Shown here in pieces: positions 32,015-53,137 of a DNA stretch of 64,000 nucleotides (position 1 is its first letter; each line of letters starts with the position of its first letter). The notes under the pieces are model-generated. The model worked only from the letters and a program-made list of their open reading frames with translations. It searched no databases and had not been told where the DNA came from. The DNA is taken from contig NZ_JAAN01000010.1 of the NCBI RefSeq assembly GCF_000559025.1, positions 62,001 through 126,000 of the forward strand, given 5' to 3'. The translations under genes and the position numbers were made by a program. The stretch comes from Luteimonas huabeiensis HB2. GTDB lineage: Bacteria > Pseudomonadota > Gammaproteobacteria > Xanthomonadales > Xanthomonadaceae.

Positions 32015-32021
32015 TGCGTGT

Positions 32022-32355
32022 TCACTCCTGTCCGGACCGCCACAGCGCGATGCCGTCGACGCTGCGCACATGGACGGCGCCGGCCTGGCGCAGTCCCGCA
32101 GCCAGAGCGGACGAGGTTTCGGCCTCGGTCACCGGGATCCAGCGTGCCCCGGTCTGCGCGAAGAGCATGTGCCAGCGACGGCCTCGGCACCGCGGCCCTT
32201 CGGACAGCCGCAGCGCCGAAGCGCTCCCACGGCAACTGCGCCCACAACCCGTGGACGCTGATGCCGACCAGCGCCAGGATCGGGCCGGCGATCCAGAGTG
32301 GGCGCGTCCATGGGGAAGGCGCGGCCGCGACGGCGGTCGCCGGGGGGGAGGGCAT
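32022..32355 (-). pseudogene. remnant of a membrane protein gene, frameshifted and probably internally deleted
   Basis: From ATG 32355 (CAGGA upstream) the first frame encodes [19 protein letters not shown] followed by a convincing membrane helix ([29 protein letters not shown]). Around 32170-32230 the protein-like signal switches frame and continues as [32 protein letters not shown] and so on to a stop at 32022, 7 nt before gtrA. Neither frame alone is sensible throughout. It looks like the two ends of a larger polytopic protein, perhaps a glycosyltransferase given gtrA, joined by a deletion, or a smaller gene with one frameshift. A sequencing error is possible. Confidence 0.55.
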
Positions 32356-32415
32356 CGCAGGTCCTGCTTGCACGGGCGTCGATTATCATCAAACGTCCGC
32401 CAAGTTACGAACGCC

Positions 32416-33786: not shown

Positions 33787-33811
33787 GAGCCTGGGCGCTA
33801 GGCTTCGGCGC

Positions 33812-33969
33812 GGTCCTTCTCCGGCAAGCGGGCGCATGCCGCTCCTTCTCCCGCAAGCGGGTGCGTATTGTTCCTTCTCCCGCAAGCGGGGCCACGTTGT
33901 TCCTTCTCCCGCAAGGCAGCGCCGGATGAGGGCGGCTTTTGCACGCCTGCGGCGTGCCCCTACCGCCTT
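33812..33969. repeat. REP-like element, copy 2, with 29-bp tandem array
   Basis: Four copies of TCCTTCTCCCGCAAGCGGG begin at 33814, 33843, 33872 and 33901, an exact 29-bp period. They are followed by the conserved tail GGCAGCGCCGGATGAGGGCGGC ... GCCTGCGGCGTGCCCCTACCGCC. It lies between the convergent 3' ends of glmU and the histidine kinase gene; the kinase stop abuts it. Confidence 0.85.
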
Positions 33970-35276
33970 TCACTCCGGCAAGGTCAGGCTCACCGCCAGC
34001 CCGCCGCCGTCGCGGTTCTGCAGCGCGATGCGGCCGCCGTGGGCTTCGCAGATCTCGCGCGCCAGCGCCAGGCCGAGGCCGGTGCCGTTGCGCTTGGTGG
34101 AATAGAACGGCAGCAGGGCATTGGCCAGGACCGCGTCGTTCATGCCGCTGCCACGGTCGAGGACGTCGAGCCGCCAGGCCTCGGGCAGCCGGCGCAGCCG
34201 CAGGCGGACTTCTTCGGCGGGCGATCCGGATTCGTGCGCGTTGCGCAGCAGGTTGATCAGGCATTGCTCCATCTGCGCCACGTCGATGCGCAGGCGGGCG
34301 TCGTACGCGTCGCCGTCGGCGACGAAGGGCACCTGCTCGCGCAGGCGCTCGGCGAAGCGCGGCCACGGCACGGTCTCCAGGCGCGGTGCGGGCAGCTTGG
34401 CGAAGCGCGCGTAGTCGCGGATGAAGCCCTCCAGGTGGCGCGCGCGCTCCTCGATGGTGGCCAGCGCGCCGGGCAGGCGCTCGAGCTGGCCGCGGCGCAG
34501 CAGTTCCGCGCCCGAGTGCGCCAGCGAGGCGATCGGCGCCAGCGAGTTGTTGAGCTCGTGGCTGATCACGCGGATCACCTTCTTCCAGGTCTGCACTTCC
34601 TGCCGGCGCAGTTCCGAGGTCAGCAGGCGCAGCAGGATCAGCTCGTGGCGGCGGCCGTTGAGCCGGAAGCGCCGGCGCGAGAGGTGGTAGATGTCCTCCT
34701 GCTCGTCCTCGCCGACGCCGAACATGCCGTCGCCGCCGTGCAGCAGCGCTTCGCCCAGCGCCGGCGGCGCGGCCGCGGCCAGGGCGTCGAAGCCGCGGCC
34801 TTCCAGGCGGGTGCCGTCGCCCAGCAGCTTGCGCGCGGCGAGGTTGCCGAGCACCACGCGCCGGCGCGGGTCGAGCAGCACCATCGCCACCGGCGTGTTC
34901 TGCACCATCGTGTCGAGCAGCAGCTCGCGCTGCACCAGCGCGCCGCGCTGTTCGCGCAGCACCGCGCCGAGCCGGTTGTGGCTGTCCACCAGCTCGCCGA
35001 GCTCGCCGCCGCCGTCCCAGTGGATGCCGAAGCTGTAGTCGCCGTCGCGGTAGGCGGCGACCGCGCCGGCCAGCGCGCGGAACAGCGCGCGTTGCGGCGC
35101 CAGGATGCGGTGCGCGCGCCAGACCAGCAGCGGCAGCAGCGCGCCGCAGGCCGCCAGCACCGCCGCCGGGGGCGGCAGCCAGCGCGCCAGCAGCGCCGCC
35201 AGCGCCGCCGCGGCCAGCGCGAACAGCGCCGCCAGGGCGGTCACCCGGGTCGGCATCGACAGCCGGCGCGCGCGCT

Positions 35277-35280
<4 letters not shown>
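33970..35280 (-). CDS. NtrY/AtoS-like sensor histidine kinase
   Basis: 436 aa membrane-bound sensor. Two N-terminal membrane helices (VTALAALFALAAAALAALLARW and AAVLAACGALLPLLVW) with almost no periplasmic loop come first. A HAMP-like region with DGDYSFGIHWDGGGELGELVDSHNRL follows, then a PAS-like segment (MVQNTPVAMVLLDPRRRVVLGN). Next are the H-box VISHELNNSLAPI, the N-box NLLRNAHES, the G-boxes DRGSGM and GTGLGLALAREICEAHGG. The tiny loop suggests sensing of the membrane or of a partner, not an external ligand. The ATG overlaps the regulator stop by 4 nt; the pair is the distal end of the exporter operon. Confidence 0.9.
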
Positions 35281-36617
<1,337 letters not shown>

Positions 36618-36685
36618 GGGGCGGTCCTGGGGCGTCACGCGGGAGAGCTTATCGGAACCGGTGCCGCCGGCCGGGCGCGCGCGGC

Positions 36686-37930
36686 TCATGGGCCGCGCGC
36701 GGCCACCGCCGGGGCGACGGCGGCCGCGCGACGGGCCGGTCCCCAGGCCGCGCACAGGCCGAGCAGCCACAGCGCCAGCGCGCCCAGCGGCAGGTAGGCC
36801 AGCGGCAGGCGCGCGAGCTCGTACTCGCGCATCAGCCACTGGTTGATGGCGTAGGCGGCGGCCAGCCCCGGCAGCAGCCCGGCGCCGACCACCACCGCGT
36901 TCTCGGCCAGGAAGTACCGCACGATGTCGCCGCGGCGCGCGCCGAGCGCGCGGCGGATGCCGATCGTGCGCCGGCGCTGCTCGACCCAGTAGGCCGACAG
37001 CCCGGCGATGCCGACAGCGGTCACCACCGACATCACCGCGATCACCGTGCCCAGCAGCCACAGCGCGGCCCGGCGCGGCCGGAACGCGGCCGCGCGCAGG
37101 GGCTCGTAGGCGTCCACGCTGGCTTCCAGCCCGGGCATGCGGCTGGTCTCGAATTCGCGCGACAGCGCCGCCAGCGCCGCTTCGCGCACCTGGTCGCGCT
37201 GCGCGGGGTCGGCGCGGACGGCGTAGGTCAGCAGCGGCACCGAGACGATCCGCGCCGGCAGCAGCATCGAGAACTCGGCCTGGCCGCCGTCGAGCGCGTC
37301 GAGCTGGTAGCGCAGCAAGTGGCGGACCACGCCCACCACCACCAGGTGGCCGGCGCCGTCCGCCTGCTCCAGCCGCCCGCCCAGCGCGTCGCCGTCGGGA
37401 AAGTAGTGCCGCGCCAGCGCCTCGGTCAGGATCGCCGGGGTGCCGGGCGGGAGGTCGATGCCGCCGCTGGACAGGTCGATGTCGAAGTGTTCTTCCGGCG
37501 CGAAGTCGCGGCCGCGCACCAGCTCTAGGCCGAGCGCCTCGCGCAGCCCCTCGCCGACGAAGCCGCTGGCGCTGGCGACCACGCCCGACGGGCTGCGGGT
37601 GCGCAGCACGAACGACATCGACTGCTTCATCGGCAGCCCCAGCGCCGGCGCGACCGCTTCCACCCCGGGCAGCGCGCGCAGCGCGTCGGCGCCGGCGCGG
37701 ATCTGCGCCGGCCGCCACATGCCCTCGCGCGAGACCAACTGATCGACCAGCAGCAGGCGCCCGCGCGCGATGCCGTCGTCGACCAGCAGCGGCGCGGCCT
37801 GGCGCTGCAGCTCGAACGCGGCGTTGAGCAGGATCGCGCAGGCGATGCAGATCTGCGCGGCGATGAGCGCCGGCATCAGCGGGTGCCGGCGCAGGGCGGA
37901 GAGGATGGGGCGCAGGGGCGGCAAGGACAT
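36686..37930 (-). CDS. MacB/FtsX-type permease, short type (pair 4, second member)
   Basis: 414 aa. An N-terminal membrane helix (LMPALIAAQICIACAILLNAAF) is followed by a ~240-residue periplasmic MacB_PCD domain and three C-terminal FtsX helices (LWLLGTVIAVMSVVTAVGIAGLSAYWVEQRRRTIGIRRALGARRGDIVRYF ...). It begins MSLPPLRPILSALRRH, like the other short-type members, but ends AAAVAPAVAARGP instead of PPAVATRSA, so it is the most diverged of the four. Last permease before the regulator gene; 3 nt from the preceding gene. Confidence 0.88.
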   Translation of the reverse strand: MSLPPLRPILSALRRHPLMPALIAAQICIACAILLNAAFELQRQAAPLLVDDGIARGRLLLVDQLVSREGMWRPAQIRAGADALRALPGVEAVAPALGLPMKQSMSFVLRTRSPSGVVASASGFVGEGLREALGLELVRGRDFAPEEHFDIDLSSGGIDLPPGTPAILTEALARHYFPDGDALGGRLEQADGAGHLVVVGVVRHLLRYQLDALDGGQAEFSMLLPARIVSVPLLTYAVRADPAQRDQVREAALAALSREFETSRMPGLEASVDAYEPLRAAAFRPRRAALWLLGTVIAVMSVVTAVGIAGLSAYWVEQRRRTIGIRRALGARRGDIVRYFLAENAVVVGAGLLPGLAAAYAINQWLMREYELARLPLAYLPLGALALWLLGLCAAWGPARRAAAVAPAVAARGP

Positions 37931-37933
37931 GGC

Positions 37934-39265
37934 TCAGAGACTCTTGACCTGGAGGACCGGCGCCAGGCGCGCGGCGCGCAGCGCGGGCAGCAGCCCGACC
38001 AGCAGGCCGACCGCCAGCGACAGCGCCATCAAGAGCGCCGACAGGCGCAGGTCCAGCCGCGCGAGATCGGTATAGCCGTGGTCCTGCAGGCGGATCACCC
38101 ACAGGCCGAACAGGGTCAGCGGCAGCGCCAGCAGGCCGCCGGCGACGCCGGCGGTGCCGGCCTCCACCAGGCACTGCACGACCACCGAGCGCCGCGGCGC
38201 GCCGAGCACGCGGCGCACGCCCAGCTCGCCGGCGCGGCGCAGGAAGCGCGCGGCGAGCAGGCCGGCGACGTTGACCATGCACAGCGCCAGCAGACCCAGC
38301 GCCAGCCACAGGTTCAGGCGCACGCTGTCGGGCACCACGCGGTTGGCCGCCAGCCATTCGCGCACGCCGTACAGCCGCGTCGCCGGCGCGCGCTCCCAGG
38401 CGCCGGCTTCGTGGCGGGCCTGGGCGAAGGCCGCCAGTGCGGCCGCGTACGCCTTGCGGTCTTCGGGCCCGCGCAGTTCCGCCCACAGCGCCAGCCAGCG
38501 GCAGGCGCCGAGATCCACGCGATCGAAGCCGAAGCCGCCGACGCCATGATCGTCGCACTGGCGGCTGCCGACCGGCGCCACGCCCGCGTCCAGCGCCGCG
38601 CGCACCGGCAGGAAGGCGATGTCCGCGCCGCGCCCGCGCCAGGCGTCGTCGGCCGGTTGCAGGAAGTGGAAGCGCGGCTGCGGCGCCCAGGCGCCGCCGA
38701 CGCCGATCACCCGGAACAGGCCCTCGCCGATCCGCAGGTCGCGACCGACGCCGTCGGCGGTGCCCAGCAGCGCCACGCTGGTCGCCTCGTCGACCACGAC
38801 CACGCGCGCGCCCTCGGCCGCCTCCTGCGGCGTCCAGAAGCGGCCGCTGCGCAGCGGCACGCCGAACATCGCCGGCATCGGCCCCTCCGCGAGCACCGCG
38901 TGGCCGTTGCGGCTGCGCGCCCCGTCGGGCGTGCGCAGCTGCAGCGGCGTGGTCATCAGCGCCGCCTGCCGCGCCTGCGGGAACGTCGCCATCATCGCGC
39001 GGGCATCGTCGAGCTTCCACAGGAACTGCGGCGCGTCGCGGTCGGGATCCGCGGACTCGGTACCGCGCTCGGCCTGGCGCGAGTCCGCCGTGGCCAGGTA
39101 CAGGTTCTCGCTGACGCCGGGCAGCGGATCGCCCGAGAGCATCGACAGCAGCGTGAGCATGCAGGTCACCGCGGCCAGGCCCAGCGCGAGCAGCAGCACC
39201 GCCAGCGCCATGGTGCGCGGGTGCCGGGTCAGGCCGCGCAGGCCGAGCGCGATCGCGTAGCGCAT
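37934..39265 (-). CDS. MacB/FtsX-type permease, long type (pair 4, first member)
   Basis: 443 aa. N-terminal helix RTMALAVLLLALGLAAVTCMLTLLSML is followed by SGDPLP, the periplasmic domain and a C-terminal FtsX domain (LWLALGLLALCMVNVAGLLAARFLRRAGELGVRRVLGAPRRSVVVQCL). The periplasmic domain has the Cys pair C-x17-C before RWLALWAEL, shared by all long-type members but with a different loop sequence. It ends LAPVLQVKSL. 7 nt after the preceding short-type gene. Confidence 0.88.
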   Translation of the reverse strand: MRYAIALGLRGLTRHPRTMALAVLLLALGLAAVTCMLTLLSMLSGDPLPGVSENLYLATADSRQAERGTESADPDRDAPQFLWKLDDARAMMATFPQARQAALMTTPLQLRTPDGARSRNGHAVLAEGPMPAMFGVPLRSGRFWTPQEAAEGARVVVVDEATSVALLGTADGVGRDLRIGEGLFRVIGVGGAWAPQPRFHFLQPADDAWRGRGADIAFLPVRAALDAGVAPVGSRQCDDHGVGGFGFDRVDLGACRWLALWAELRGPEDRKAYAAALAAFAQARHEAGAWERAPATRLYGVREWLAANRVVPDSVRLNLWLALGLLALCMVNVAGLLAARFLRRAGELGVRRVLGAPRRSVVVQCLVEAGTAGVAGGLLALPLTLFGLWVIRLQDHGYTDLARLDLRLSALLMALSLAVGLLVGLLPALRAARLAPVLQVKSL

Positions 39266-39272
39266 CGCCGGG

Positions 39273-40484
39273 TCAGGCCGAGCGCGTGGCGACCGCCGGC
39301 GGTACCGCCGCGGCGCGCCGGGCCGGCCAGTACACCGCGATCTGGCCCAGCAGCCACAGCGCGATCGCGCCCGCCGGCAGGTAGGACAGCGGCAGCCGCG
39401 GGATCTCGTAGCGCGCCATCAGCCACTGGTTGAGCCCGTAGGCCAGCAGCATGCCCAGCGCGATGCCGATGCCGGCGAGCAGGAAGTTCTCGGCCTGGAA
39501 ATAGCGCAGGATCTGCCCGCGGGTCGCGCCCAGCGCGCGGCGGATGCCGATCTGCTTGTTGCGCTGCTGGACCCAGAAGCTGGCCAGGCCGACGATGCCC
39601 AGCGCGGTCACCACCAGCAGCGCCGCGATCACGACCGTTAGCAGCCAGGCCATCGCCCGGTCCTGGGCGAAGAAGCGCTCGCGCAGATCGGTGAAGACGT
39701 CGGCATTGGCGACCACGCGGTTGGGATCGATCCGGTTCAGCGCCTCCAGCGAGGCCGCCAGCACCTCGGCGCGGCGGCCGGGCTCGGTGCGGATCAGGTA
39801 GTTCACGCCGGCCTGGTTGTAGCGCACCGGAAGCACCATCGCGTACTGGCCGAGCCCGAAGCTGTTGGGGCGGACCAGTTCCTCGACCACGCCGACCACG
39901 CGGATCGGCGCCTCGCCCCAGCTGTAGAACACCTTGCCCACCGCGTCCTCGCCCGGGAACAGGCGCTCGGCCATCCGGCGGTTGAGGATGGCCGCCGGCA
40001 CGCCCAGGCGCTCGTCGCGCTCCAGCGCCTCGGCGTCGACGAATTCGTCGGGAGCGAAACCGCGCCCGGCGACCAGGCGCAGGCCCAGCGTCTCCACCAG
40101 GTCCTCGCTGCCCGAGTACACCGCGGCGTTGAGGGTGCTGCTGTCCTGCTCGGGACTCAGGCGCACGCCGCTGTTGTTGCTGGAATTGCCGAACGGCAGC
40201 TGGTTGCCGGCGGCGGCGTGGGTCACCCCGGGCACCGCGCGCAGCGCGGCCAGATCCTCCTCGATCATGGCGCGTCCGCCGGTGCGCGTGCGCGCGCTGA
40301 TGGCCTGGATGCGCAGCAGTTCGTTCTCCGCCACGCCGCTGGGCATCTGCATGCGCTCCACGCGCTGGCCGATCAGGAAGATGGCGTTGCACACGATCGC
40401 GCAGGTCAGCGCGACCTCCAGCACGATCAGCGCCGCGGCGGTCTTGTGGCGGCGCAGGGAGGACAGGATGGGACGGAATTCCAT
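39273..40484 (-). CDS. MacB/FtsX-type permease, short type (pair 3, second member)
   Basis: 403 aa. It starts MEFRPILSSLRRHKTAAALIVLEVALTCAIVCNAIFL (anchor helix). The periplasmic MacB_PCD domain has VRYNQAGVNYLIRTEPGR. The FtsX domain is LLTVVIAALLVVTALGIVGLASFWVQQRNKQIGIRRALGATRGQILRYFQAEN, and it ends PPAVATRSA. The FtsX segment is nearly identical to those of the short-type members at 41857 and 44402, evidence of tandem duplication. 46 nt after the long-type partner. Confidence 0.9.
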   Translation of the reverse strand: MEFRPILSSLRRHKTAAALIVLEVALTCAIVCNAIFLIGQRVERMQMPSGVAENELLRIQAISARTRTGGRAMIEEDLAALRAVPGVTHAAAGNQLPFGNSSNNSGVRLSPEQDSSTLNAAVYSGSEDLVETLGLRLVAGRGFAPDEFVDAEALERDERLGVPAAILNRRMAERLFPGEDAVGKVFYSWGEAPIRVVGVVEELVRPNSFGLGQYAMVLPVRYNQAGVNYLIRTEPGRRAEVLAASLEALNRIDPNRVVANADVFTDLRERFFAQDRAMAWLLTVVIAALLVVTALGIVGLASFWVQQRNKQIGIRRALGATRGQILRYFQAENFLLAGIGIALGMLLAYGLNQWLMARYEIPRLPLSYLPAGAIALWLLGQIAVYWPARRAAAVPPAVATRSA

Positions 40485-40530
40485 GGGCTTCTCCGGGGCG
40501 GTCGGGCGGGCGCCGGGACGGCGCCCGGCC

Positions 40531-41838
40531 TCACTGCGACTTGAGCTGGATGGCGGGGGCGATGCGCATCGCCCGCCAGGCCGGCAGCACGCCGGCGATC
40601 AGGCTGGCCGCGATCGCGAAGGCGAAGGTGGTCGCGAGCATGGTGGGATCGAGGTGGGCCAGCTTGGCGTAGGCCGCCGGCTGCTGGCGCACCGCCCACA
40701 GGCCCAGCAGCGCCAGCAGCAGTCCGGCCAGGCCGCCGGCCAGGCCGATCGCGCCGGCCTCGACCAGGAACTGGGCGAAGATCGCCCGCCGCGGCGCGCC
40801 CAGCGCCCGGCGCACGCCGATCTCGGGCGCGCGCCGCAGGCACTTGGCCAGCAGCAGGCCGACGGTGTTGACCAGGCACACTGCCAGGAAGGCGAACGCC
40901 AGCCACACCTGCAGGCGCACGTCGCTCGGCACGACCTCCTTGAATGCCAGCCATTCCGTCACCGTGCGCGCGCGGACGTTGTCCGGCCGCTCGAAGCGCC
41001 CGGCCGCGCGCTGGCGCGCGGAGTAATCGATCAGGTAGGCGCGGTAGTCCGCGGCCTCGTCCGGCGAGGCCAGTTCCACCCAGTACTGGACCCAGGCGCA
41101 GGGCGCGTTCGGGGCGCGGGAATCGCCGCTGCTGCTGGCCCAGCAGTTGGTGTTGCCGGAGGTGTCCAGCTTCACGGTGTCGTCCATCGCGGTGGCGAAC
41201 GGCACGAACAGCGATTCCACCGCGCCGAAGCGCCCGGTGGTGAGGTCGTAGAACTTGGGCACCGGCCGCCACGGCGCCAGCACGCCGGCGATGCGGAACT
41301 CGGTCTCGCCCGCGCGCAGGCTGCGCCCGACGCTGTTCTCGCCGCCGAACAGGGTCTGGTTGAGCTCGTGGGAGATCACCGCCACCCGCGCGCGCGCCTC
41401 GTCGTCCGCGGCGGCCCAGCCTTGTCCGTGCGCGAACGGCACGTCGAACATCGCGAAGAAGTCGGCGGAGGTGTAGCGGCCGTCGACGAACGTGGCCGCG
41501 CGCGCCGCATCGGCCGGCTGTACGGGGACGTAGCCGCCGCTCATCATCGCCTGCCGCGCGCCGCGGGCCTCCCGCAGCAGGGACTCGGCATCGAAGCGGG
41601 TCAGCTGCTCCTCGGGTTCCTCGCCGGGCCGGTACTCGGCCATGTTCGGCGCGTCCAGCTGCACGTAGAGCAGGCGGTCGCTCTTGTGCGGGATCGGGTC
41701 GCCCGACAGCACGCGGAACACCGTCAGCGTGGTCATGCAGGCGCCGATGCCCAGCGCGATGGCCAGGACCGCCAGCGCGGTAAGCACCTTGTTGCGGCGG
41801 AAGCTGCGCAGGGCGAGGTTGGCGTAGTAGGCGAACAT
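40531..41838 (-). CDS. MacB/FtsX-type permease, long type (pair 3, first member)
   Basis: 435 aa. It starts MFAYYANLALRSFRRNKVLTALAVLAIALGIGACMTTLTVFRVLSGDPIP (anchor helix and family motif). The periplasmic domain has C-x14-C before AWVQYWVEL. The FtsX domain has VWLAFAFLAVCLVNTVGLLLAKCLRRAPEIGVRRALGAPRRAIFAQFLVEAG, and it ends IAPAIQLKSQ. 18 nt downstream of the previous pair. Confidence 0.9.
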   Translation of the reverse strand: MFAYYANLALRSFRRNKVLTALAVLAIALGIGACMTTLTVFRVLSGDPIPHKSDRLLYVQLDAPNMAEYRPGEEPEEQLTRFDAESLLREARGARQAMMSGGYVPVQPADAARAATFVDGRYTSADFFAMFDVPFAHGQGWAAADDEARARVAVISHELNQTLFGGENSVGRSLRAGETEFRIAGVLAPWRPVPKFYDLTTGRFGAVESLFVPFATAMDDTVKLDTSGNTNCWASSSGDSRAPNAPCAWVQYWVELASPDEAADYRAYLIDYSARQRAAGRFERPDNVRARTVTEWLAFKEVVPSDVRLQVWLAFAFLAVCLVNTVGLLLAKCLRRAPEIGVRRALGAPRRAIFAQFLVEAGAIGLAGGLAGLLLALLGLWAVRQQPAAYAKLAHLDPTMLATTFAFAIAASLIAGVLPAWRAMRIAPAIQLKSQ

Positions 41839-41856
41839 GGGCGGGTCTCCGGCGCC

Positions 41857-43071
41857 TCAGGCGCTGCGGGTGGCGACGGCGGGGGGAATGGCGGCCGCGC
41901 GCAGCGCGGGGCCGAGCACGGCGAGCTGGCCCAGCGCCCACAGCAGGCAGGCGCCGATGGGCAGGTAGCGCAACGGCAGGCGCTGGAGTTCGAAGACGTC
42001 CATCAGCAGCAGGTTGCCGCCGTAGGCCAGCAGCATGCCCAGCCCGATGCCGGCGCTGGCCAGGAGCAGGTTCTCGGTCTGGAAATAGCGCAGGATGTCG
42101 CCGCGGGTCGCGCCCAGCGCGCGGCGGATGCCGATCTGCTTGGTGCGCTGCTGCACCCAGAAGCTGGCCAGGCCGACGATGCCCAGCGCGGTGACCAGCA
42201 GCATGGCCGCGATCACCGTCAGCAGCAGCCCGGCCATGGCCCGATCGCCCTGGAAATGGCGTTGGCGCAGTTCGGCCAGCGTGCGGCTTTGCTGCTGGTC
42301 GACGACCGACTCCGGCACCGCGCGGGCCACCGCCTCGCGCGCGGCCTGCGCCACGCCCGGCAGGTCGCGCGGGTCGGCGCGCAGCACGTAGCTGCCCGAC
42401 TGCGCATCGCCGCCGACCGGCACGACGATCGACCAGTCCGCGCCGCGCAGGCCTTCCTCGCTGCGGCCCGGGTCGGTGACCGCGAAATGATCGAGCACGC
42501 CGGCCACGCGGAAGTGGCCCGCGCTCCAGATGTCCTTCCCCAACGGGTCTTCGCCGGGCCACAGGTGCTCGGCCAGCGATCGGGTGATCCAGACCTGGGC
42601 GTCGGCGGGGAGGAAGTTGTCGATCGGCTGGAAGTCCTCGGCGGCGAAGGCGCGGCCGCGCACCGGCCGCAGCCCGAGCGCTTCGATGGCGCCGGCATCG
42701 GCGGTGTAGAAATGCACCACGCCGCCCCAGTGGGTTCCGTCCGGATCCAGGTGGATGCCGGCATAGCCGGCGCGCGGGCCGAACGGCACGGTGTTGACGC
42801 TGCCGGCCGCCTGCACGCCGGGAATGGCGCGCAGCGCGCCGAGCACGCGCCCGTTGACGTCGGCATGGCCGCAGCCGTCGCAGCCGCTCAGGGCGACCGT
42901 GGCCAGGGCGGATTCGTCGACGCCGCTGTCGATGCGCATCAGCGCCAGGCGCCCGGCGACCAGGAAGAAGGCGTTGCACAGCACCGCGCAGGCCAGGGCG
43001 ATCTCGAGCACGATCAGGCTGACCGCGACGCGATGGCGGCCGAGCGCGGACAGGATGGGGCGGATTGCCAT
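41857..43071 (-). CDS. MacB/FtsX-type permease, short type (pair 2, second member)
   Basis: 404 aa. It starts MAIRPILSALGRHRVAVSLIVLEIALACAVLCNAFFL. The periplasmic domain is unusual among the short type in carrying a SGCDGCGHAD motif near 65-75, a possible metal or disulphide site. The FtsX domain is LLTVIAAMLLVTALGIVGLASFWVQQRTKQIGIRRALGATRGDILRYFQTEN, and it ends PPAVATRSA. 8 nt after its long-type partner. Confidence 0.9.
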   Translation of the reverse strand: MAIRPILSALGRHRVAVSLIVLEIALACAVLCNAFFLVAGRLALMRIDSGVDESALATVALSGCDGCGHADVNGRVLGALRAIPGVQAAGSVNTVPFGPRAGYAGIHLDPDGTHWGGVVHFYTADAGAIEALGLRPVRGRAFAAEDFQPIDNFLPADAQVWITRSLAEHLWPGEDPLGKDIWSAGHFRVAGVLDHFAVTDPGRSEEGLRGADWSIVVPVGGDAQSGSYVLRADPRDLPGVAQAAREAVARAVPESVVDQQQSRTLAELRQRHFQGDRAMAGLLLTVIAAMLLVTALGIVGLASFWVQQRTKQIGIRRALGATRGDILRYFQTENLLLASAGIGLGMLLAYGGNLLLMDVFELQRLPLRYLPIGACLLWALGQLAVLGPALRAAAIPPAVATRSA

Positions 43072-43079
43072 GGCGGCCC

Positions 43080-44405
43080 TCACAGCGTCTTGAGTTGCAT
43101 GGCCGGGACGATCCGGCTGGCACGGAAGGCCGGGAACACCCCGGCGGCGAGGCTGGCGCCGATGGCCAGCGCGAACGTCAGCGCGAACATCGACACGTCC
43201 AGGCGCACCAGGTCGGCGTATTCCACCGGCTGCCGGCGCACCGCCCACAGCCCCAGCAGGGTCAGCAGCCAGCCCAGGAGCCCCCCGGCCAGTCCGATCA
43301 GCCCGGCTTCGGTCAGGCATTGCTTGAAGATTTCCCCGCGCGGGGCGCCGAGGGCGCGGCGCACGCCGATCTCGCCGCTGCGGCGCAGGAACTTGGCCAG
43401 CAGCAGGCCGACGGTGTTGAACAGGCAGATGGCCAGGAACGCCAGCGCCAGCCAGGTCTGCAGGCGGGCGTCGCGCGGGACCACGCGGTTGTAGTCGAGC
43501 CAGTCCATCAGCGACAGCACGCGCGCGTTGTCGGGGAAGCGGATCCGCCCCAGGGCCTTCTGCTGCGCGGCATAGTCGGCGACGAAGCGGCGGTAGTCGG
43601 CGACCTTGGTGGCGCTGTCGAGCTGCACCCACAGCTGCAGCCACACGCAATCGCTGTTCTGCAGGCGCCCCGGCACCGGCGGCAGCGCGTTGCAGGTGAA
43701 CTGCTGGAAATGCCCGTCGTTGATTTCGAGCCCGGTCTGGAACGGCACGAACACGTCCTGGCTGCGCCCGTAGAAGCTGGCGGTATCGCCTTGCGAGAAG
43801 TTGCCGCCGGCCAGGGTGTAGAACAGCGGCGACGGCCGCCACGGCGCGAGCACGCCGACGATGCGCACCTGGCTGCCGCGCACCAGCAGGCTGCGCCCGA
43901 CGCTGTCGGCGCCGGCGAAGAGCTTTTCGTTGAGGTCGTGCGAGATCACCGCCACGCGCGAGCGCCTGTCGTCGTCTTCCGCGCTCCAGCCGCCGCCGTG
44001 GGCGAACGGCGCGCCGAACATCGGGAAGAAGTCCGCGTGGGTGGACAGCATCTGCGTCATCAGCGGCGGCTGCCGGGTGTCCGGCGACTGCAGCTTGATC
44101 CGGCTGTCGACGACGATGGCCTGGCGGTCGGCGCGCCGGGCCCGCCACAGATCCATGGCGGAGACGTAGTCGAGCATGTCGGGCGGGTCGCGCCGCAGGC
44201 GGTCGGTGGACAGCGCATCCACCTGCGGATAGAAGATCCGCTGGCTGCGGCCCGGCAGTGGATCGCCGGACAGCAGCCGCATCACCGTCAGCGTGGTCAT
44301 GCACGCGCCGATGCCCACCGCGATGGCGACGATCATCAGCGCGGTGAGCGCCTGGTTGCGCCGCAGGCTGCGCAGGGCGAGCTTGAGGTAGTAGCCGAGC
44401 ATCAT
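43080..44405 (-). CDS. MacB/FtsX-type permease, long type (pair 2, first member)
   Basis: 441 aa. It starts MMLGYYLKLALRSLRRNQALTALMIVAIAVGIGACMTTLTVMRLLSGDPLPG. The periplasmic domain has C-x14-C before VWLQLWVQL. The FtsX domain is LALAFLAICLFNTVGLLLAKFLRRSGEIGVRRALGAPRGEIFKQCLTEAG, and it ends IVPAMQLKTL. The start codon overlaps the stop of the preceding short-type gene (ATGA), tying pair 1 and pair 2 into one translational chain. Confidence 0.9.
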   Translation of the reverse strand: MMLGYYLKLALRSLRRNQALTALMIVAIAVGIGACMTTLTVMRLLSGDPLPGRSQRIFYPQVDALSTDRLRRDPPDMLDYVSAMDLWRARRADRQAIVVDSRIKLQSPDTRQPPLMTQMLSTHADFFPMFGAPFAHGGGWSAEDDDRRSRVAVISHDLNEKLFAGADSVGRSLLVRGSQVRIVGVLAPWRPSPLFYTLAGGNFSQGDTASFYGRSQDVFVPFQTGLEINDGHFQQFTCNALPPVPGRLQNSDCVWLQLWVQLDSATKVADYRRFVADYAAQQKALGRIRFPDNARVLSLMDWLDYNRVVPRDARLQTWLALAFLAICLFNTVGLLLAKFLRRSGEIGVRRALGAPRGEIFKQCLTEAGLIGLAGGLLGWLLTLLGLWAVRRQPVEYADLVRLDVSMFALTFALAIGASLAAGVFPAFRASRIVPAMQLKTL

Positions 44406-45637
44406 GCGCTCCGGGTCGCGACGGCGGGAGGGACGGCGGCCGCGCGCAGGGCGGGCCCGAGCACGGCGAGCTGGCCGAGCACGCAGACCGCGAGCGCGCC
44501 GGCGGCCGCGGTGGCCGGATCCAGCCGCTCCAGCTCGAAGCGCTGCATCAGCCATTGGTTGATCGCGAACGCCAGCGCCGTGCCCAGCGCCGTGCCGGCG
44601 CCGACGATGAGCAGGTTCTCGACCTGGAAGTAGCGCAGGATGTCGCCGCGGGTGGCGCCGAGCGCGCGGCGCACGCCGATCTGGCGCGTGCGCTGCTGGA
44701 CCCAGAAGCTGGCCAGGCCGCCGATGCCCAGCGCGGTCACCAGCAGCACGATCGCCATGATCGCGACCAGGATGGCGGCGGTGGCGCGTTCGCCGCGGAA
44801 GGCGCGCTCGCGCGACTGCGCGACCGTGGTCACCCGCTGCTGGACGTGCCCGGGGTTGTGCTCGCGCATCGCACGCGCCGCCTGCGGCAGCACCTCGCTC
44901 AGCCGGCCGGGCGCGCTGCGCACCACGTACAGTCCGCCGAGTCCTTCGTCGCCGACGCGCATCTGGGTGAGCAGGGATTCGTCGTCGCTGCCGCGGCCGG
45001 TGATCTCGGCCCGCAGCGAGTCGATCACGCCGACGATGCGGAAGCGGATCGAGGTGCCGTAGACGGTGCCGTACAGGTGGCGGCCGAGCGCCGTCCCGTC
45101 CGGGAACGCGCGTGCGGCCAGGGCGCGGGTGATCAGCGCCGGCGCCTGGACCGGGCCGCTGGCGGCCATCAGCTCGGCGATCGAGGGCAACTCGTCGTCG
45201 CGCAGGGCGCGCCCCTCGATGACCCGCACGTCGAGCGCCCGGTCCAGGCCCTGGCTGCCCAGGAACAGGTGCGCCCGCGCGACGGGCACCTGCGCGCCGC
45301 CGGGTTCGCGGAACAGCGGCAGCGGCCCGTCGGCCCAGAACGGCGCGGCGCCGAACGCGGCCGCCTCCACCCCGGGCACCGCGCCCAGCGCCGCCAGGCT
45401 GCCGCCGGTGGTGCCCGGATTCTCGGTGCCGATGACGCCGATGCTCTGGATCAGGCCGATGTCGGCCTCGGGCACGCCGCTGGGCGTACCGGCGCGCCGG
45501 ATCGTGCCCGAGACGACGTGCACGAGGTTGCACAGCACCGCCAGCGTCAGCGCGATCTCCAGCGCCAGCAGGCAGGCGGCGGCGCGGTGCGCGCGCAGCG
45601 CCGACAGGATCGGCCGGATGTCCGTCGCCGTCCTCAT
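44402..45637 (-). CDS. MacB/FtsX-type permease, short type (pair 1, second member)
   Basis: 411 aa. It starts MRTATDIRPILSALRAHRAAACLLALEIALTLAVLCNLVHV. The periplasmic domain differs most from its paralogues. The FtsX domain is ILVAIMAIVLLVTALGIGGLASFWVQQRTRQIGVRRALGATRGDILRYFQVEN, and it ends PPAVATRSA. Overlaps both neighbours by 4 nt. Confidence 0.9.
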   Translation of the reverse strand: MRTATDIRPILSALRAHRAAACLLALEIALTLAVLCNLVHVVSGTIRRAGTPSGVPEADIGLIQSIGVIGTENPGTTGGSLAALGAVPGVEAAAFGAAPFWADGPLPLFREPGGAQVPVARAHLFLGSQGLDRALDVRVIEGRALRDDELPSIAELMAASGPVQAPALITRALAARAFPDGTALGRHLYGTVYGTSIRFRIVGVIDSLRAEITGRGSDDESLLTQMRVGDEGLGGLYVVRSAPGRLSEVLPQAARAMREHNPGHVQQRVTTVAQSRERAFRGERATAAILVAIMAIVLLVTALGIGGLASFWVQQRTRQIGVRRALGATRGDILRYFQVENLLIVGAGTALGTALAFAINQWLMQRFELERLDPATAAAGALAVCVLGQLAVLGPALRAAAVPPAVATRSA

Positions 45638-46938
45638 AGCGACTTCACCTGCAGCGCGGGCGCCACCCGCGAGGCCCGCCACGCCGGCCACAGCCCGGCG
45701 CACAGGGTGGCGGCGATCGCCAGGCCCAGCGCCGCGGCCAGCATCGCCGGATCCAGCTTCGCCAGCGCCGCGTACTGGACCGGTTGCTGGCGCACCAGCC
45801 ACAGCCCGAGCCAGGCCAGCGGCAGCCCGAGCAGGCCGCCGGCCAGGCCGAGGGTGCCGGCCTCGGTCAGGCACTGGGCGAAGATCGCGCGCCGGCTCGC
45901 GCCGAGGCAGCGGCGGATGCCGATCTCGCTGGACTTGCGCAGGAACTTGGCCAGCATCAGGCCCAGCGTATTGAGCAGGCACACCAGCAGCACGCCGAAT
46001 GCGATCCAGGCCTGCATGCGCACGGTCTGCGGGATCACCCGCTTGTGGTCGAGCCAGTCCACCAGCCCGCGCAGGCGCACGTTGGGCGGCCGCTCGAAAC
46101 GGCCCGATTCCGCCTGCGCCCGGCTGTAGGCCGCCAGCGCCGCGCGATACCCCTCGACCTGGGCCGGCGTCGCCAGCTCGACCCAGAACTGCACCCAGGT
46201 GCAGTGCGGCGTCTTCGGATCGTGCAGGCCGGCGCCGGGGTCGTCGCCCCAGCAGCGCATCGGGCCGTAGCCGTAGTCCTGCGGCAGGTCCATCCAGGCC
46301 GAGAACGGCACGAACATGCCGACCGGCTCGGCGTCGAACGCGCCGGAATTGAGGTCGTAGAAGCGCGGCTGCGGGTTCCAGCGATCGACGACGCCGATCA
46401 CGCGGAAGCTGCGCGTGGCGATGGTCAGCTCGCGGCCGACGCTGTCGCCGCCGCCGAACAGGCGCTGGCTCAGATCGCGATCGAGCACCACGACCTGCGC
46501 GCGCGCCGCGTCCTCCTCCGCGGTCCAGCCGCGCCCGTGCAGGAACGGCACGTCGAACATGGGGAAGAAATCGGCGGTGGCCGCGCGCGTGGTCTGCATC
46601 GTCGGCGGCGCGCGCTCGTCGGCGCGCACCGGCAGCCAGTTGCTGCTGGTCATCGTGCGGCGGGGCGCGGGCAGCTCGAACAGGGCCGTCGCGTCGTGCC
46701 AGGTGAGGTCGTCGGGCGGTTCCGGATCGTCGCCGGCGCCGAGCGGCCGCGGATCGACCTGCGGGTGGTAGAGGACCGCGCTGCGCTGGGGCAGCGGATC
46801 GCCGGACAGGTTGCGCAGGACCACGAGCATGGTCATGGCCGTGCCGATGCCCAGCGCGACCGCCAGCACCATCAGCGCGCTCGACAGCGGCGTCCTGCGC
46901 AGGCTGCGCAGGGCCAGGGCGATGTCGTGGGCGAGCAT
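45634..46938 (-). CDS. MacB/FtsX-type permease, long type (pair 1, first member)
   Basis: 434 aa. It starts MLAHDIALALRSLRRTPLSSALMVLAVALGIGTAMTMLVVLRNLSGDPLP. The periplasmic MacB_PCD domain has C-x16-C before TWVQFWVEL. The FtsX domain is AWIAFGVLLVCLLNTLGLMLAKFLRKSSEIGIRRCLGASRRAIFAQCL, and it ends VAPALQVKSL. 27 nt downstream of the ATPase gene, hence the founding pair by position. Confidence 0.9.
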   Translation of the reverse strand: MLAHDIALALRSLRRTPLSSALMVLAVALGIGTAMTMLVVLRNLSGDPLPQRSAVLYHPQVDPRPLGAGDDPEPPDDLTWHDATALFELPAPRRTMTSSNWLPVRADERAPPTMQTTRAATADFFPMFDVPFLHGRGWTAEEDAARAQVVVLDRDLSQRLFGGGDSVGRELTIATRSFRVIGVVDRWNPQPRFYDLNSGAFDAEPVGMFVPFSAWMDLPQDYGYGPMRCWGDDPGAGLHDPKTPHCTWVQFWVELATPAQVEGYRAALAAYSRAQAESGRFERPPNVRLRGLVDWLDHKRVIPQTVRMQAWIAFGVLLVCLLNTLGLMLAKFLRKSSEIGIRRCLGASRRAIFAQCLTEAGTLGLAGGLLGLPLAWLGLWLVRQQPVQYAALAKLDPAMLAAALGLAIAATLCAGLWPAWRASRVAPALQVKSL

Positions 46939-46965
46939 CGGTCGGGTCCGTCGAGGCGGCGACGC

Positions 46966-47676
46966 TCAGGCGGCGCCGTGGGGGGCGGCCTGAGCCGTCG
47001 CCGGCTCGCGCACGATGTCGGTGACCATGCCGTCGACGATGTGCACGTTGCGCTGCGCGCGCGCGGCCAGCTCCGGGTCGTGGGTGACCATCACGATGGT
47101 CGCGCCCTGGCGGTGGATGTCCTCCAGCAATTCCATCACGCTGCGCGCCATCTGCGAGTCCAGGTTGCCGGTGGGCTCGTCGGCCAGCAGCAGGCGCGGG
47201 CTGCCGGCCAGCGCGCGGGCGATCGCCACGCGCTGCTGCTGGCCGCCCGAGAGTTCGGCCGGGTAGTGCTTCATGCGCGAGGCCAGCCCGACCATCGTCA
47301 GCGCCTCCTCGATCCGCCGCTTGCGCTCGGCCGCGGGCATGCCGCGGTAGCGCAGCGGCACGTCCACGTTGTCGAACAGGTCGAGATCGGGGATCAGGTT
47401 GAAGCCCTGGAAGATGAAGCCGATCTTCTCGTTGCGCAGCCGCGAGCGCTGGTTGTCGTCGAGTCCCTTCACGTCGACGCCGTCGAGGCGGTAGTCGCCG
47501 CCGGTGAAGGTTTCCAGCAGGCCGGCGATGTTGAGGAAGGTGGTCTTGCCGGAGCCGGAGGGCCCGGTGACGGCGACGAATTCCCCTTCGCGCACGTGCA
47601 GGTCGAGCGCGCGCAGGGCGTGGGTCTCGACGAGTTCGGTGCGGTAGACCTTGGCGAGGGCTTGCATGTGCAGCAT
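46966..47676 (-). CDS. MacB-like ABC transporter ATPase
   Basis: 236 aa stand-alone nucleotide-binding subunit of the LolD/MacB class. Walker A is GPSGSGKTTF (~39-48), Q-loop FIFQGFNLIPDL, signature LSGGQQQRVAIARAL, Walker B RLLLADEPTGNLD, switch VTHDPELAARA. It is the only ATPase in the cluster, so all eight permeases presumably compete for or share it. ATG at 47676 (MLHMQALAKVYRTELVETHALRAL) gives the family start. 87 nt after the adaptor gene. Confidence 0.93.
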   Translation of the reverse strand: MLHMQALAKVYRTELVETHALRALDLHVREGEFVAVTGPSGSGKTTFLNIAGLLETFTGGDYRLDGVDVKGLDDNQRSRLRNEKIGFIFQGFNLIPDLDLFDNVDVPLRYRGMPAAERKRRIEEALTMVGLASRMKHYPAELSGGQQQRVAIARALAGSPRLLLADEPTGNLDSQMARSVMELLEDIHRQGATIVMVTHDPELAARAQRNVHIVDGMVTDIVREPATAQAAPHGAA

Positions 47677-47763
47677 GGACGGACTCCGGGCGGACGGGAT
47701 GCGGAAGGGGCGGCGGTCAGCCGCGGATGCGGGAGGGTGCGGGCGCAACGACGCGGGGCATGC

Positions 47764-49053
47764 TCAGTCTCCGGAGATGCGCACGCGCTCGGCGTTGTCG
47801 AACAGGTCGCTGCCCGAGACCACCACGCGCTCGCCGGGCTGCAGGCCGGAGACGATCTCCACCGCCGACAGGCTGCTGGCGCCGGCCTCGATCGGGCGGC
47901 GCACGGCGGTATTGCCCTGCACCACGTAGGCGAAGCGGCCGCCGAGCTGGTCGAGGAACGGGCCGCGCTCGACCTGGACCACGTCGCGGCGGGTGTCGAG
48001 CACGATGCGCGCGGTCAGGCGCTGGTTCTGGCGCAGGCCCGGCGGCTGCCGCTCGCTGAAGCGCACCCGCGCGGCGACCTCGCCGCTGACCACTTCCGGC
48101 GACACCGCCGAGACCTCGGCCGGGAACACCTCGGCGCCGCTGCGGATCTCGGCCGGCATGCCGATCCCCAGGTCGCGGGCGAAGCTCTCCGGCACCTTGA
48201 TCTCGACCTCGAACACCGACAGGTCCACCACCCCCAGCACCGGCGCGTTGGCGGCCACGTTGCTGTGCTGGACCGCCTGCACCTGGCCGACCTGGCCGTC
48301 GAAGGGGGCGCGCAGGGTCAGCGCCTCGACCTGGCGCCGCGCCTCGGCGACCACCGCGCGCTGGCGGTCGGCCAGCAACTGCTTGTTGCGCGCGTCGAGC
48401 GCGGCGCCCTGGCCTTGCAGGGTGGCGTCCTCGCGCGCGGAGGCCAGGCCGATGTCGGTCTTCTTCAGGGTGTCCTCGGCCTTGGCCAGGTCCACCTGCG
48501 CGACCACGCCGGCGTCGAACGCGCGCTGGTAGCGCTGCAGGTCGCGTTCGGCGGCGGTGCGGTCGATCTCGGCCTGGTCCAGCAGCTTGCGCGCCTCGGC
48601 GCGGGCGATGCGCGCGTCCAGCGCGGCGCGGTCGGCCTCGGCCTGCAGGCTGGCCAGGGTGGATTCCTCCTGCACCAGCTTGCTGCGCAGTTCCGGGCTG
48701 TCGATCTCGGCCAGCACCTGGCCCTGCTTGACGATGTCGCCGGCCACCACCTTCAGCGTCACCGCGCCGCTGGCGATCGCGTACAGGGTGGGGTTGTTGG
48801 CGGCGATGACCCGGCCTTCGGCGCTGATGTCGCGGACCAGATCGCCGCGGCCGACCTCGGCGATGCGCAGGCGCGCTGCGTCGTAGGAACGCGCGCCGCC
48901 GGCCCACCCGGCCACCACCCAGCCGAGGCCGGCCAGCACCGCCAGCGCCACCGCTGCCGCGGGCAGCCAGCGGCGCAGGCGGCGGGCGCGGCCGGGCGCG
49001 ACGCGCACGGCGTCCTGGGCGGCGGTATCGCGGATCGGGGTCGGTCGGTTCAT
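47764..49053 (-). CDS. HlyD/MacA-like periplasmic adaptor
   Basis: 429 aa membrane-fusion protein. A basic cytoplasmic tail and one anchor helix (WLPAAAVALAVLAGLGWVVAGWAG, ~34-57) come first. The lipoyl half-motif is IASGAVTLKVVAGDIVKQGQVLAEIDSPEL, then a long alpha-hairpin (~115-230, EESTLASLQAEADRAALDARIARAEARKLLDQAEID ...). The second half-lipoyl is LTLRAPFDGQVGQVQAVQHSNVAANAPVLGVVDLS, followed by beta-barrel and membrane-proximal domains. The long hairpin implies docking with a TolC-type outer-membrane channel, which is not encoded here. It is the first gene of the operon and sits directly behind a sigma-54 promoter. Confidence 0.92.
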   Translation of the reverse strand: MNRPTPIRDTAAQDAVRVAPGRARRLRRWLPAAAVALAVLAGLGWVVAGWAGGARSYDAARLRIAEVGRGDLVRDISAEGRVIAANNPTLYAIASGAVTLKVVAGDIVKQGQVLAEIDSPELRSKLVQEESTLASLQAEADRAALDARIARAEARKLLDQAEIDRTAAERDLQRYQRAFDAGVVAQVDLAKAEDTLKKTDIGLASAREDATLQGQGAALDARNKQLLADRQRAVVAEARRQVEALTLRAPFDGQVGQVQAVQHSNVAANAPVLGVVDLSVFEVEIKVPESFARDLGIGMPAEIRSGAEVFPAEVSAVSPEVVSGEVAARVRFSERQPPGLRQNQRLTARIVLDTRRDVVQVERGPFLDQLGGRFAYVVQGNTAVRRPIEAGASSLSAVEIVSGLQPGERVVVSGSDLFDNAERVRISGD

Positions 49054-49090
49054 GCGGGCGGGCTGTCTTGCGAAGGCGTGCTTGACCTTA

Positions 49091-49107
49091 AGCAGGATGC
49101 GTGCCAA
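49091..49107 (-). promoter_or_regulatory. sigma-54 (RpoN) -24/-12 promoter of the exporter operon
   Basis: On the minus strand TTGGCACGCATCCTGCT: the -24 GG (49105-49104) and -12 GC (49093-49092) have the obligatory 10-nt spacing, and TGGCACG-N4-YTGCT matches the consensus except one base. The predicted start is about 25 nt before the adaptor ATG. A sigma-54 activator gene ends this same operon. Confidence 0.85.
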
Positions 49108-49153
49108 CGGCTATCCATTTGAATGAAAAGGAAATTCTTCGCGTTGCCGGGGT

Positions 49154-49215
49154 GTCCGCCGGGGCGGGCGGACGTCCGCGCCCGCGTCCGCGCGCTGCCG
49201 TCCCCGTGCGGGGAC
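49154..49215. promoter_or_regulatory. candidate upstream activator sites
   Basis: Two inverted repeats 50-110 bp upstream of the RpoN promoter, in enhancer range: GTCCGCC-N6-GGCGGAC (49154-49173) and GTCCCCG-N2-CGGGGAC (49200-49215). Both share a GTCC...GGAC frame. Either could bind the Fis-type HTH of the response regulator. Confidence 0.45.
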
Positions 49216-49229
49216 GCGCGGTTGTATGA

Positions 49230-49248
49230 GAAAATGCGAATCATTCTC
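49230..49248 (+). promoter_or_regulatory. Fur box upstream of tonB
   Basis: GAAAATGCGAATCATTCTC matches the 19-bp Fur consensus GATAATGATAATCATTATC at 15 positions. It overlaps an ATG at 49226, so translation of tonB must begin downstream. Predicts repression by iron-loaded Fur. Confidence 0.8.
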
Positions 49249-49432
49249 GATGTTTCGCGAGCCGCGTTCCGATGGCGTTCCCCAAGTTCCTGGCCGTGTC
49301 CGGCGTCCGCCCTGCCGCTGCCGGATGCGCGCGGGCGTCGCGCGCCGGCGCGCGCCGGCCTGGGACGCGTCCAGGACGTGCGCCGCGGGCGGCGGCGGGT
49401 GCCGCGCCCGGCTTCGCGCCGGGGGCCTGAGG

Positions 49433-50197
49433 GTGGCCGTGCGCAAGTCCGGTACCGGCCGCGGCGGCCGTCGCGGCGAGGGCGGGGCACGCGGCGTCGC
49501 GGCCGCGGCGACCGTCGCCGTGCACATGCTGGCGGCCTCGCTGCTGCTGGGCGGCCCGGCGGCGCAGCCGCCGCCTCCGCCCGAGCCGGCGGTGATCAGC
49601 GTGGTGTTCCTGCCCGACGCCGCCCCGGTGCTGCCGGTCGAGGAGCGGATCGCCCCCGAGGTCTCGCCCGAGGCCGCCGAGGCGCCGCGCCAGGCCGAGC
49701 CGGCGCCGCCGCTGGAACGCCGACCGCCGCCCGAGCCGCTGCCGCCGCAGCCCGAGCCGGAGCCGCCGCCGCCGGTGCCCGGCGACGCACCCGCGCTGCC
49801 CGCCGCCTCGCCGGCACCGCCGCGCGAGGCCGCGGACGCGCCCGGCCCGCCGTCGCAGGCGGCCGCGCCGCCGAGCCAGTCCGGGCCGCCGGCGCCGACC
49901 CTGGCCGGTCGCCCCGACCCGGCGTGGGAGGCGCGGGTGATGGCGCGCCTGGCCGAGTTCCGCCACTACCCCACCGCGTCGCGCGCGCGCGGCGAGGAAG
50001 GGATCGCCGTGGTGCGCGCGCGGCTCGACCGCAGCGGCCGCGTGCTGTCGGCAGAACTGGAGCGCTCGTCGGGCTCGCGGCGCCTGGATGCCGCCGCGGT
50101 GGAGACCTTCCACCGCGCCTCGCCGCTGCCGCCGGTGCCCGCGCACCTGCCCGACGAGGTGGTGCTGTCGATCCCGGTGGAGTTCTTCGTGCGCTGA
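49433..50197 (+). CDS. tonB: TonB energy transducer
   Basis: 254 aa from GTG 49433. A basic N-terminus (VRKSGTGRGGRRGEGGARG) precedes one anchor helix (VAAAATVAVHMLAASLLLG). A Pro/Glu-rich periplasm-spanning stretch (~43-155, EPEPPPPVP) follows. The TonB C-terminal domain has YPTASRARGEEGIAVVRARLDRSGRVLSAELERSSGSRRLDAAAVETFHRASPLPPVP. It couples the proton-motive force (via ExbBD, not here) to outer-membrane siderophore or haem receptors. The start is uncertain: GTG 49439 or another codon nearby could be used. The upstream Fur box indicates iron control. Confidence 0.85.
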   Translation: MAVRKSGTGRGGRRGEGGARGVAAAATVAVHMLAASLLLGGPAAQPPPPPEPAVISVVFLPDAAPVLPVEERIAPEVSPEAAEAPRQAEPAPPLERRPPPEPLPPQPEPEPPPPVPGDAPALPAASPAPPREAADAPGPPSQAAAPPSQSGPPAPTLAGRPDPAWEARVMARLAEFRHYPTASRARGEEGIAVVRARLDRSGRVLSAELERSSGSRRLDAAAVETFHRASPLPPVPAHLPDEVVLSIPVEFFVR

Positions 50198-51101: not shown

Positions 51102-51304
51102 GGCCGGTGCGTGCCGGCGGCGGCGCGGGGGAGCGGGGGCGCGGCGGGGCTCATGCGGCGATGATCGCCGCGCGCCGCCGCGGCACCCATGACCTGGATC
51201 AAGCCCCGCGCGCGGTGAACCGTGCCTGGGCCGCCGCCCGGCGGCCTGCCGGCGCGGCGGCGCGCGCCGTTAGAATGCGTCGTTTCCCCCCAGGAGCGGA
51301 TGGT

Positions 51305-53137
<1,833 letters not shown>

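Follow-up and report, generated by a model that had tools for sequence, protein, structure and literature searches.

The window analysed here, a stretch of 64,000 nucleotides from the genome of Luteimonas huabeiensis HB2, carries on its minus strand a run of genes for an exporter and a two-component system, and the question that it raises is which promoter drives this run and whether the regulator encoded in it acts back on that promoter. A sequence-only reading had proposed that an RpoN promoter at 49107-49091 heads the operon and that the regulator activates its own expression from it. Our analysis leads us to think that the site, TTGGCACGCATCCTGCT, is very probably the sigma-54 promoter of a twelve-gene MacAB-like exporter operon, which is probably autoregulated, in a positive sense, by its own regulator together with an intramembrane kinase.

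The operon and its exporter

Twelve co-directional genes, headed by TTGGCACGCATCCTGCT, run on the minus strand from 49053 down to 33970 (Table 1). The operon was first read as ending in an RpoN activator; an NtrC-family activator is indeed encoded in it, but in the penultimate position, and the last gene is that of the kinase. Genes for two kinds of FtsX/MacB-type permease, A and B, follow each other in turn, eight in all, so that four permease pairs share one adaptor and one ATPase.

Table 1. Coordinates in the window of the operon genes and of the elements upstream of them.
Feature	Position	Strand	Remark
-24/-12 (sigma-54) promoter TTGGCACGCATCCTGCT	49091..49107	minus	sequence, consensus match, conservation
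Expected transcription start	49080	minus	12 nt past the C of the -12 GC; inferred from the usual sigma-54 spacing
IHF-like element ATTCAAATGGATA	49112..49124	minus	7 of 9 fixed positions of the consensus
Candidate enhancer (UAS) half-sites	49153..49190		CGGACA 49158-49153, GTCCG 49173-49169, CGGAC 49178-49174, CGGAC 49190-49186
Periplasmic adaptor (RND_mfp/HlyD type, MacA-like), first gene	47764..49053	minus	429 aa
ABC ATPase	46966..47676	minus	236 aa
Permease A, pair 1 (MacB_PCD + FtsX)	45634..46938	minus	
Permease B, pair 1	44402..45637	minus	
Permease A, pair 2	43080..44405	minus	
Permease B, pair 2	41857..43071	minus	
Permease A, pair 3	40531..41838	minus	
Permease B, pair 3	39273..40484	minus	
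Permease A, pair 4	37934..39265	minus	
Permease B, pair 4	36686..37930	minus	
NtrC-family response regulator (receiver, AAA+ with GAYTGA, Fis-type HTH)	35277..36617	minus	
Sensor histidine kinase, two adjacent membrane helices	33970..35280	minus	hydropathy

The gene order adaptor-ATPase-(A-B)n-regulator-kinase was found in the window and in 79 of the 79 family loci fetched from adaptor to kinase, and what varies is the number of permease pairs: among 80 operons, the window included, 67 have one pair, six have two, one has three, two have four and four have five. Permeases P1 and P3 of the window share 67% and 79% identity with their top matches from other genera, but 38-55% with the remaining A permeases of the window operon, so the window copies are not recent duplicates. 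From their sequences, the permease pairs look like old cassettes that have been reassorted between operons.

Some further observations concern the permease region and its surroundings. Many permease copies (window 36686-46938; L111-L189) are closer to other genera than to their neighbours. About 7 kb without recognised operon genes lies between the permease pair and the regulator in L113 (G065), an extra partial permease B is present in L123, L124, L133 and L135, one gene is split over two frames in L177 and L184, and a contig end cuts the kinase in L181. On the plus strand, the flanks of the operon read by eye like glmU (32014-33786) and glmS (51107-53137). The divergent gene at 49226-50197 (plus strand) encodes a TonB protein and shares its upstream region with the operon; in this shared region, GAGAATGATTCGCATTTTCTC at 49228-49248 resembles a Fur box, and L001 has a close variant of it. 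In many relatives the divergent start reads by eye like glmS instead of TonB, and trmL lies directly upstream of the operon in G005, G035 and G057.

Adaptor, ABC ATPase and MacB_PCD/FtsX permeases are encoded together, as in MacAB-TolC and the MacB-family (type VII) ABC exporters. In contrast to MacAB, ATPase and permease are here separate genes, the A/B pairs come in one to five tandem copies under one promoter, and there is no outer-membrane channel gene among the twelve; matches to the fused ATPase-permease MacB (NF007826) stay below its cut-off. Among NCBIfam models, the ATPase scores highest with DarD, of the darobactin exporter, but its 261 bits fall short of the 375-bit cut-off of that model. 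The ADOP model (TIGR03434) is covered over its first half by permease A of pair 1 and over its second half by permease B, but these are two genes, with 174 and 141 bits against a cut-off of 622 bits, and not the single duplicated permease of about 800 aa.

The -24/-12 site and its conservation

On re-reading, the sequence, strand, coordinates and GG-N10-GC spacing reported for the site were all exact. The GG (49105-49104) and the GC (49093-49092) lie ten bases apart on the minus strand in a TGGCAC-N5-TTGCW context, and TTGGCACGCATCCTGCT agrees with the sigma-54 consensus, YTGGCACGRNNNTTGCW, at 12 of its 14 fixed positions. The distance between the site and the predicted leader of the adaptor, given before as about 25 nt, had to be corrected, with 37 nt measured to the likely ATG at 49053; from the expected start (Table 1) to this ATG, a leader of 27 nt is expected.

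The spacing, which had been stressed, is no evidence by itself. The window has 2180 matches to GG-N10-GC where shuffled sequence has 2143 ± 44, and the motif TGGCAC-N6-TGCW shows no enrichment in the genome of the organism (18 matches, 33 for the reversed control), in such a way that spacing was rejected as evidence; the stricter TGGCACG-N5-TGCW has one match in the window against about 0.1 expected under a first-order Markov model. Since the spacing alone is at chance level, the case for a promoter is made by conservation.

For this, two sets of relatives that partly overlap in species were used, 80 named loci with a related adaptor and 82 whole-genome loci (L111-L192); L197, in which no adaptor was found, was omitted from the whole-genome scan. 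The named relatives include Xanthomonas and Stenotrophomonas, and the closest named adaptor, from Luteimonas sp. Y-2-2-4F, is 95% identical. A -24/-12-like site was detected upstream of the adaptor in 80/80 named and 81/82 whole-genome loci, that is, in 161 of 162. The best sites of the named loci score 10 in 2 cases, 11 in 12, 12 in 35, 13 in 27 and 14 in 4, and those of the whole-genome loci 10 in 3, 11 in 9, 12 in 33, 13 in 32 and 14 in 5, so that a score of at least 12 is reached in 66/80 and 70/82 loci, respectively (136 together). As a control, ten random windows were taken from each of 88 loci (the 82 loci and six paralogue loci). Only 5 of 880 windows on the same strand and 2 of 880 on the opposite strand reach 12, whereas 215 of the 880 same-strand windows reach 10, so a score of 10 by itself is weak. 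One of the three tens among the 82 loci, L175, has a best site that is not promoter-like and lies 280 nt off.

After dropping duplicates and L175, which has no site, 144 distinct upstream regions remained, the window included. The scan imposed GG and GC only, yet all of these regions also have the T before the GG and the CA that follows; the next C is kept in 136, the next G in 129 and the T before the GC in 143. Most flanking columns carry less than 0.7 bit, and the exceptions fall within the IHF-like word described below. In other families of the order, the nine operons with the adaptor inside the fetched stretch all have a site scoring at least 11, and eight of them at least three UAS cores, the ninth having just 16 nt of upstream sequence fetched. 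These data strongly support a sigma-54 promoter at the head of the operon, and the proposal made from the sequence of the window is thus borne out by conservation upstream of the adaptor in relatives. A simple scan of positions 33700-49500, of a kind that is weak in GC-rich DNA, called no sigma-70-like promoter and no terminator, including inside the operon.

Some relatives also carry a paralogous system (L193-L199) with adaptor, ATPase, permease, a regulator about 47% identical and a kinase; five of the six scored have a site of at least 12, with half-sites at a different spacing.

Upstream array, regulator and a relative without rpoN

The commonest words shared upstream of the promoter are half-sites of the CGGACA type and their complements (TGTCCG). 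Exact half-sites number 385 in 81 regions, made up of the window and the 80 named loci. In 100 dinucleotide shuffles their number averages 18.4 and never exceeds 29. Of the 385, 377 are located 41-140 bp upstream of the -24 GG. Within 170 bp, at least two CGGAC/GTCCG cores are present in 144/144 distinct regions and at least four in 133. The window array lies around 50-85 bp upstream of the -24 GG and has four cores in 95 bp, where mononucleotide shuffles have a mean of 0.45 and reach four in 0.1% of cases; its half-sites are less perfect and less regular than those of most relatives. As half-site spacing differs among genera, we describe them as an array and leave the exact operator unfixed. 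To judge from this sequence pattern, the CGGACA/TGTCCG words are likely the enhancers of the operon's regulator.

Enhancer and promoter were also searched for jointly. The pattern CGGACA-N35..60-TTGGCAC-N6-TGC occurs once in the genome of the organism, at the operon promoter. It was found in 62 of 87 family genomes with the operon or the regulator and in 0 of 12 without them. A Fisher test on these counts says little, since the promoter of the operon itself accounts for most matches, and was given no weight as evidence. In other families, 28 of 61 genomes have the pattern; a regulator orthologue is encoded in 41 of the 61 and missing from 20. Many of these matches lie away from the regulator and some are in genomes that lack it, and this comparison was not counted as a test either.

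Between the array and the promoter the mean GC content falls to 36%, and a putative IHF-like element, ATTCAAATGGATA, is found in the window, to be compared with the IHF consensus WATCAANNNNTTR. On the sense strand, 8 or 9 of the 9 fixed positions are matched in 99/144 regions, 96 of them with the word starting 16-17 nt before the promoter, against 14/144 on the antisense strand and 1.6% of shuffles. This word is nearer to the -24 element than in textbook promoters.

The regulator has receiver, Sigma54_activat and Fis-type HTH domains over the Pfam cut-offs and belongs to the NtrC family, without being NtrC proper (TIGR01818, 342 bits against a cut-off of 558.6). Its sigma-54 contact loop reads GAYTGA, and a tyrosine is tolerated at the F position of GAFTGA (PMC7057263). 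Among 80 aligned regulators GAYTGA is kept in 77, the exceptions being GAFAGV, GAYTSA and one gap row; GAYTSA is the reading in G045 (L174), yet rpoN and a -24/-12 site are present there. The kinase of the window has two membrane helices with few residues between them by hydropathy, which agrees with the periplasmic loop of almost no length described before; the same crude scan is noisy on relatives and gave one to six segments.

The genome of the organism has two rpoN genes and four strong sigma-54 activator domains, that of the operon's regulator included. In the likeliest rival reading, sigma-54 polymerase at this promoter would depend on a different activator, for which the other three are candidates, and the operon's regulator would act elsewhere. 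Similar half-sites adjoin the paralogous regulator in some relatives, and a genome without the regulator, G027, keeps such a site before trmL. Within the family, however, regulator and exporter travel together: among 99 genomes, a regulator orthologue (at least 58% identity, present in 86) and the adaptor are both found in 85 and neither in 12, while the two discordant genomes, with one each alone, are 76% and 87% complete, so that 85 of the 87 genomes with either have both, in the constant gene order already described. This linkage is not universal in the order. Outside the family, of the 20 stretches fetched upstream of regulator orthologues, four are free of exporter genes in both orientations (L314, L316, L323 and L332, from G410, G418, G455 and G427; one shortened by a contig end), nine have the adaptor and seven have permease arrays that continue past the edge. 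Around each of the organism's three remaining activators, in turn, 14 kb of sequence contains no adaptor, ATPase or permease of the operon's kind. Taken with the relative described next, in which the regulator adjoining an operon without a sigma-54 promoter has a degenerate sigma-54 loop, these data make another activator improbable and support, from sequence comparison, the operon's regulator as the activator of the TTGGCACGCATCCTGCT promoter.

The sigma-54 DNA-binding domain is encoded in 395 of 396 family genomes that are at least 95% complete, and G034 alone is without it. G034 retains the whole operon (L175) and a perfect palindrome, GTGTCCGCGGACAC, followed by an IHF-like AAATCAGTTAGTTAG, and, alone among the 82 loci, has no -24/-12 site. 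Its operon regulator, which is its only strong AAA+ activator-type protein, has the loop GAFAGV and the Walker A sequence GPSGAGKD (GPNGAGKE in the window), with Walker B unchanged and an HTH like those of the others. In GAFTGA, changes of the F and T mostly abolish activity (PMC3162934). The joint absence of sigma factor, promoter element and intact loop, with the operator kept, is what is expected if the regulator acts via sigma-54 at this operon. G034 is a single case, and a loss of rpoN in the assembly might conceivably be the cause of its absence; it makes sigma-54 dependence directly testable. A clean sigma-70 replacement was also considered for G034, where TTGACA precedes the ATG, but a scan with 16-18 spacing called no promoter.

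Since G034 keeps regulator and operator without sigma-54, another role for the regulator is conceivable, and it might repress or merely modulate the promoter instead of closing a positive loop; we regard this as very unlikely, given the GAYTGA loop kept in nearly all aligned regulators and the need of the sigma-54 polymerase complex for an activator ATPase in order to open (PMC7057263). A fortuitous match at TTGGCACGCATCCTGCT, with the true transcription start at another place, is hardly credible, for all the frequency of the loose motif in GC-rich DNA and among the random windows at a score of 10, and was rejected by the conservation of the site against the matched controls and by the lack of any alternative sigma-70-like promoter in the simple scan.

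Under positive autoregulation from a sigma-54 promoter, the circuit would work as follows, where we infer regulator binding, phosphorylation, the direction of control, the signal and the cargo. The kinase would fire on a signal, probably a membrane-active peptide or damage to the envelope, that the permeases may help to read, and the regulator would be phosphorylated. It would then bind the CGGACA/TGTCCG array and assemble into a hexamer, presumably assisted by a DNA bend at the IHF-like element, and its GAYTGA loop would, with ATP, open the sigma-54 polymerase at 49107-49091, in such a way that the levels of exporter, kinase and regulator would rise together. The promoter step of this mechanism is well supported. 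Membrane stress, suggested earlier, may be the signal, in keeping with the topology of the kinase and the kind of exporter. As for the autoactivation proposed at the outset, the half-site array, the regulator-exporter linkage and G034 all agree with it by comparison, and this support is good but indirect. Because promoter and likely regulator sites are conserved together, the exporter probably amplifies its own production once its sensor is activated.

Sites before trmL and related modules

Outside the operon, 19 of the 20 fetched matches of the enhancer-plus-promoter pattern lie before trmL, the exception being L222. In 15 of the 20, an open reading frame downstream of the site codes for a small protein with TLxxVxVRPSAEQ repeats and an N-terminus that looks signal-like by eye; with L208, a sixteenth of a looser variant, these are L204-L218 and L223. 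Four of these repeat proteins were tested against the NCBIfam cut-off of the XAC0231 family, with two above and two below it. Many leaders of these sites also share a conserved block, TACTACCTTACTACC, which contains the inverted repeat GGTGT...ACACC, and in L219-L221, L292 and L301, from other genera, different tiny open reading frames with signal-like N-termini follow a similar site before trmL.

When 89 trmL regions were scanned, 25 had a site of at least 11 with at least three cores, in a conservative scan that missed or did not cover G029, G042 and G063, which have a pattern match; the trmL upstream regions of the organism itself and of G034 have no such site. A variant site with four cores also stands before trmL in G027, which has neither the operon nor the regulator; the regulator may thus not be the sole user of the array. 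With 25 of 89 sites and one of them in an operon-less genome, trmL provides no clean test of the regulator. We therefore leave the trmL site outside the proof and take it as a first lead on the purpose of the exporter.

Bce modules use an OmpR-type regulator and sigma-A, whereas the operon has an NtrC-type regulator, sigma-54 and a Gram-negative adaptor-type exporter. The likeness to the peptide-sensing BceRS-BceAB modules of Firmicutes (compare PMC5786555, PMC8913810) is in a kinase with almost no extracellular loop beside an FtsX-type exporter, which is its likely output; by hydropathy, the window kinase is of this intramembrane-sensing kind and stands beside such an exporter.

Sigma-54 control of FtsX-type permeases is already predicted, in a 2025 paper whose computed regulons show sigma-54 enrichment of COG0577 permeases in gamma-Proteobacteria, COG0577/COG1136 being ABC antimicrobial-peptide transporters, and which terms this the first evidence for that family (PMC12316311). 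That enrichment is at the level of the class, whereas operon, enhancer, cognate regulator and kinase are not described in the part consulted; its main text has none of the words 'lysobacter', 'exporter' and 'macb'. A 2021 review on sigma-54 in plant pathogens gives FleQ, PilR and PrpR as activators of Xanthomonas oryzae and three NtrC-family proteins as unstudied (PMC8657755). In the main texts of Xanthomonas rpoN papers and of a 2011 sigma-54 survey, searched by term, exporter-class terms were absent or uninformative. The literature search, with supplements and most subscription journals outside it, returned no paper on the regulation of the operon, on the complete module or on G034.

A wider reading can be put forward, tentatively and with more doubt than confidence. 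The module would be a sigma-54 counterpart of Bce, in which an expandable array of permease-pair cassettes, with a shared adaptor and ATPase, answers to an intramembrane kinase and its NtrC-type activator through a dedicated enhancer code; the same code would drive the small secreted XAC0231-type proteins before trmL in part of the family, and an RpoN-less lineage would have rewired the module off sigma-54. If so, the small secreted proteins could be cargo of the exporter, protectants or sensors, and the G034 lineage would be a natural record of an enhancer-dependent operon escaping its sigma factor. For the family, the analysis provides a likely cognate promoter, enhancer sequence and circuit for a regulator that is present in 86 of the 99 genomes sampled.
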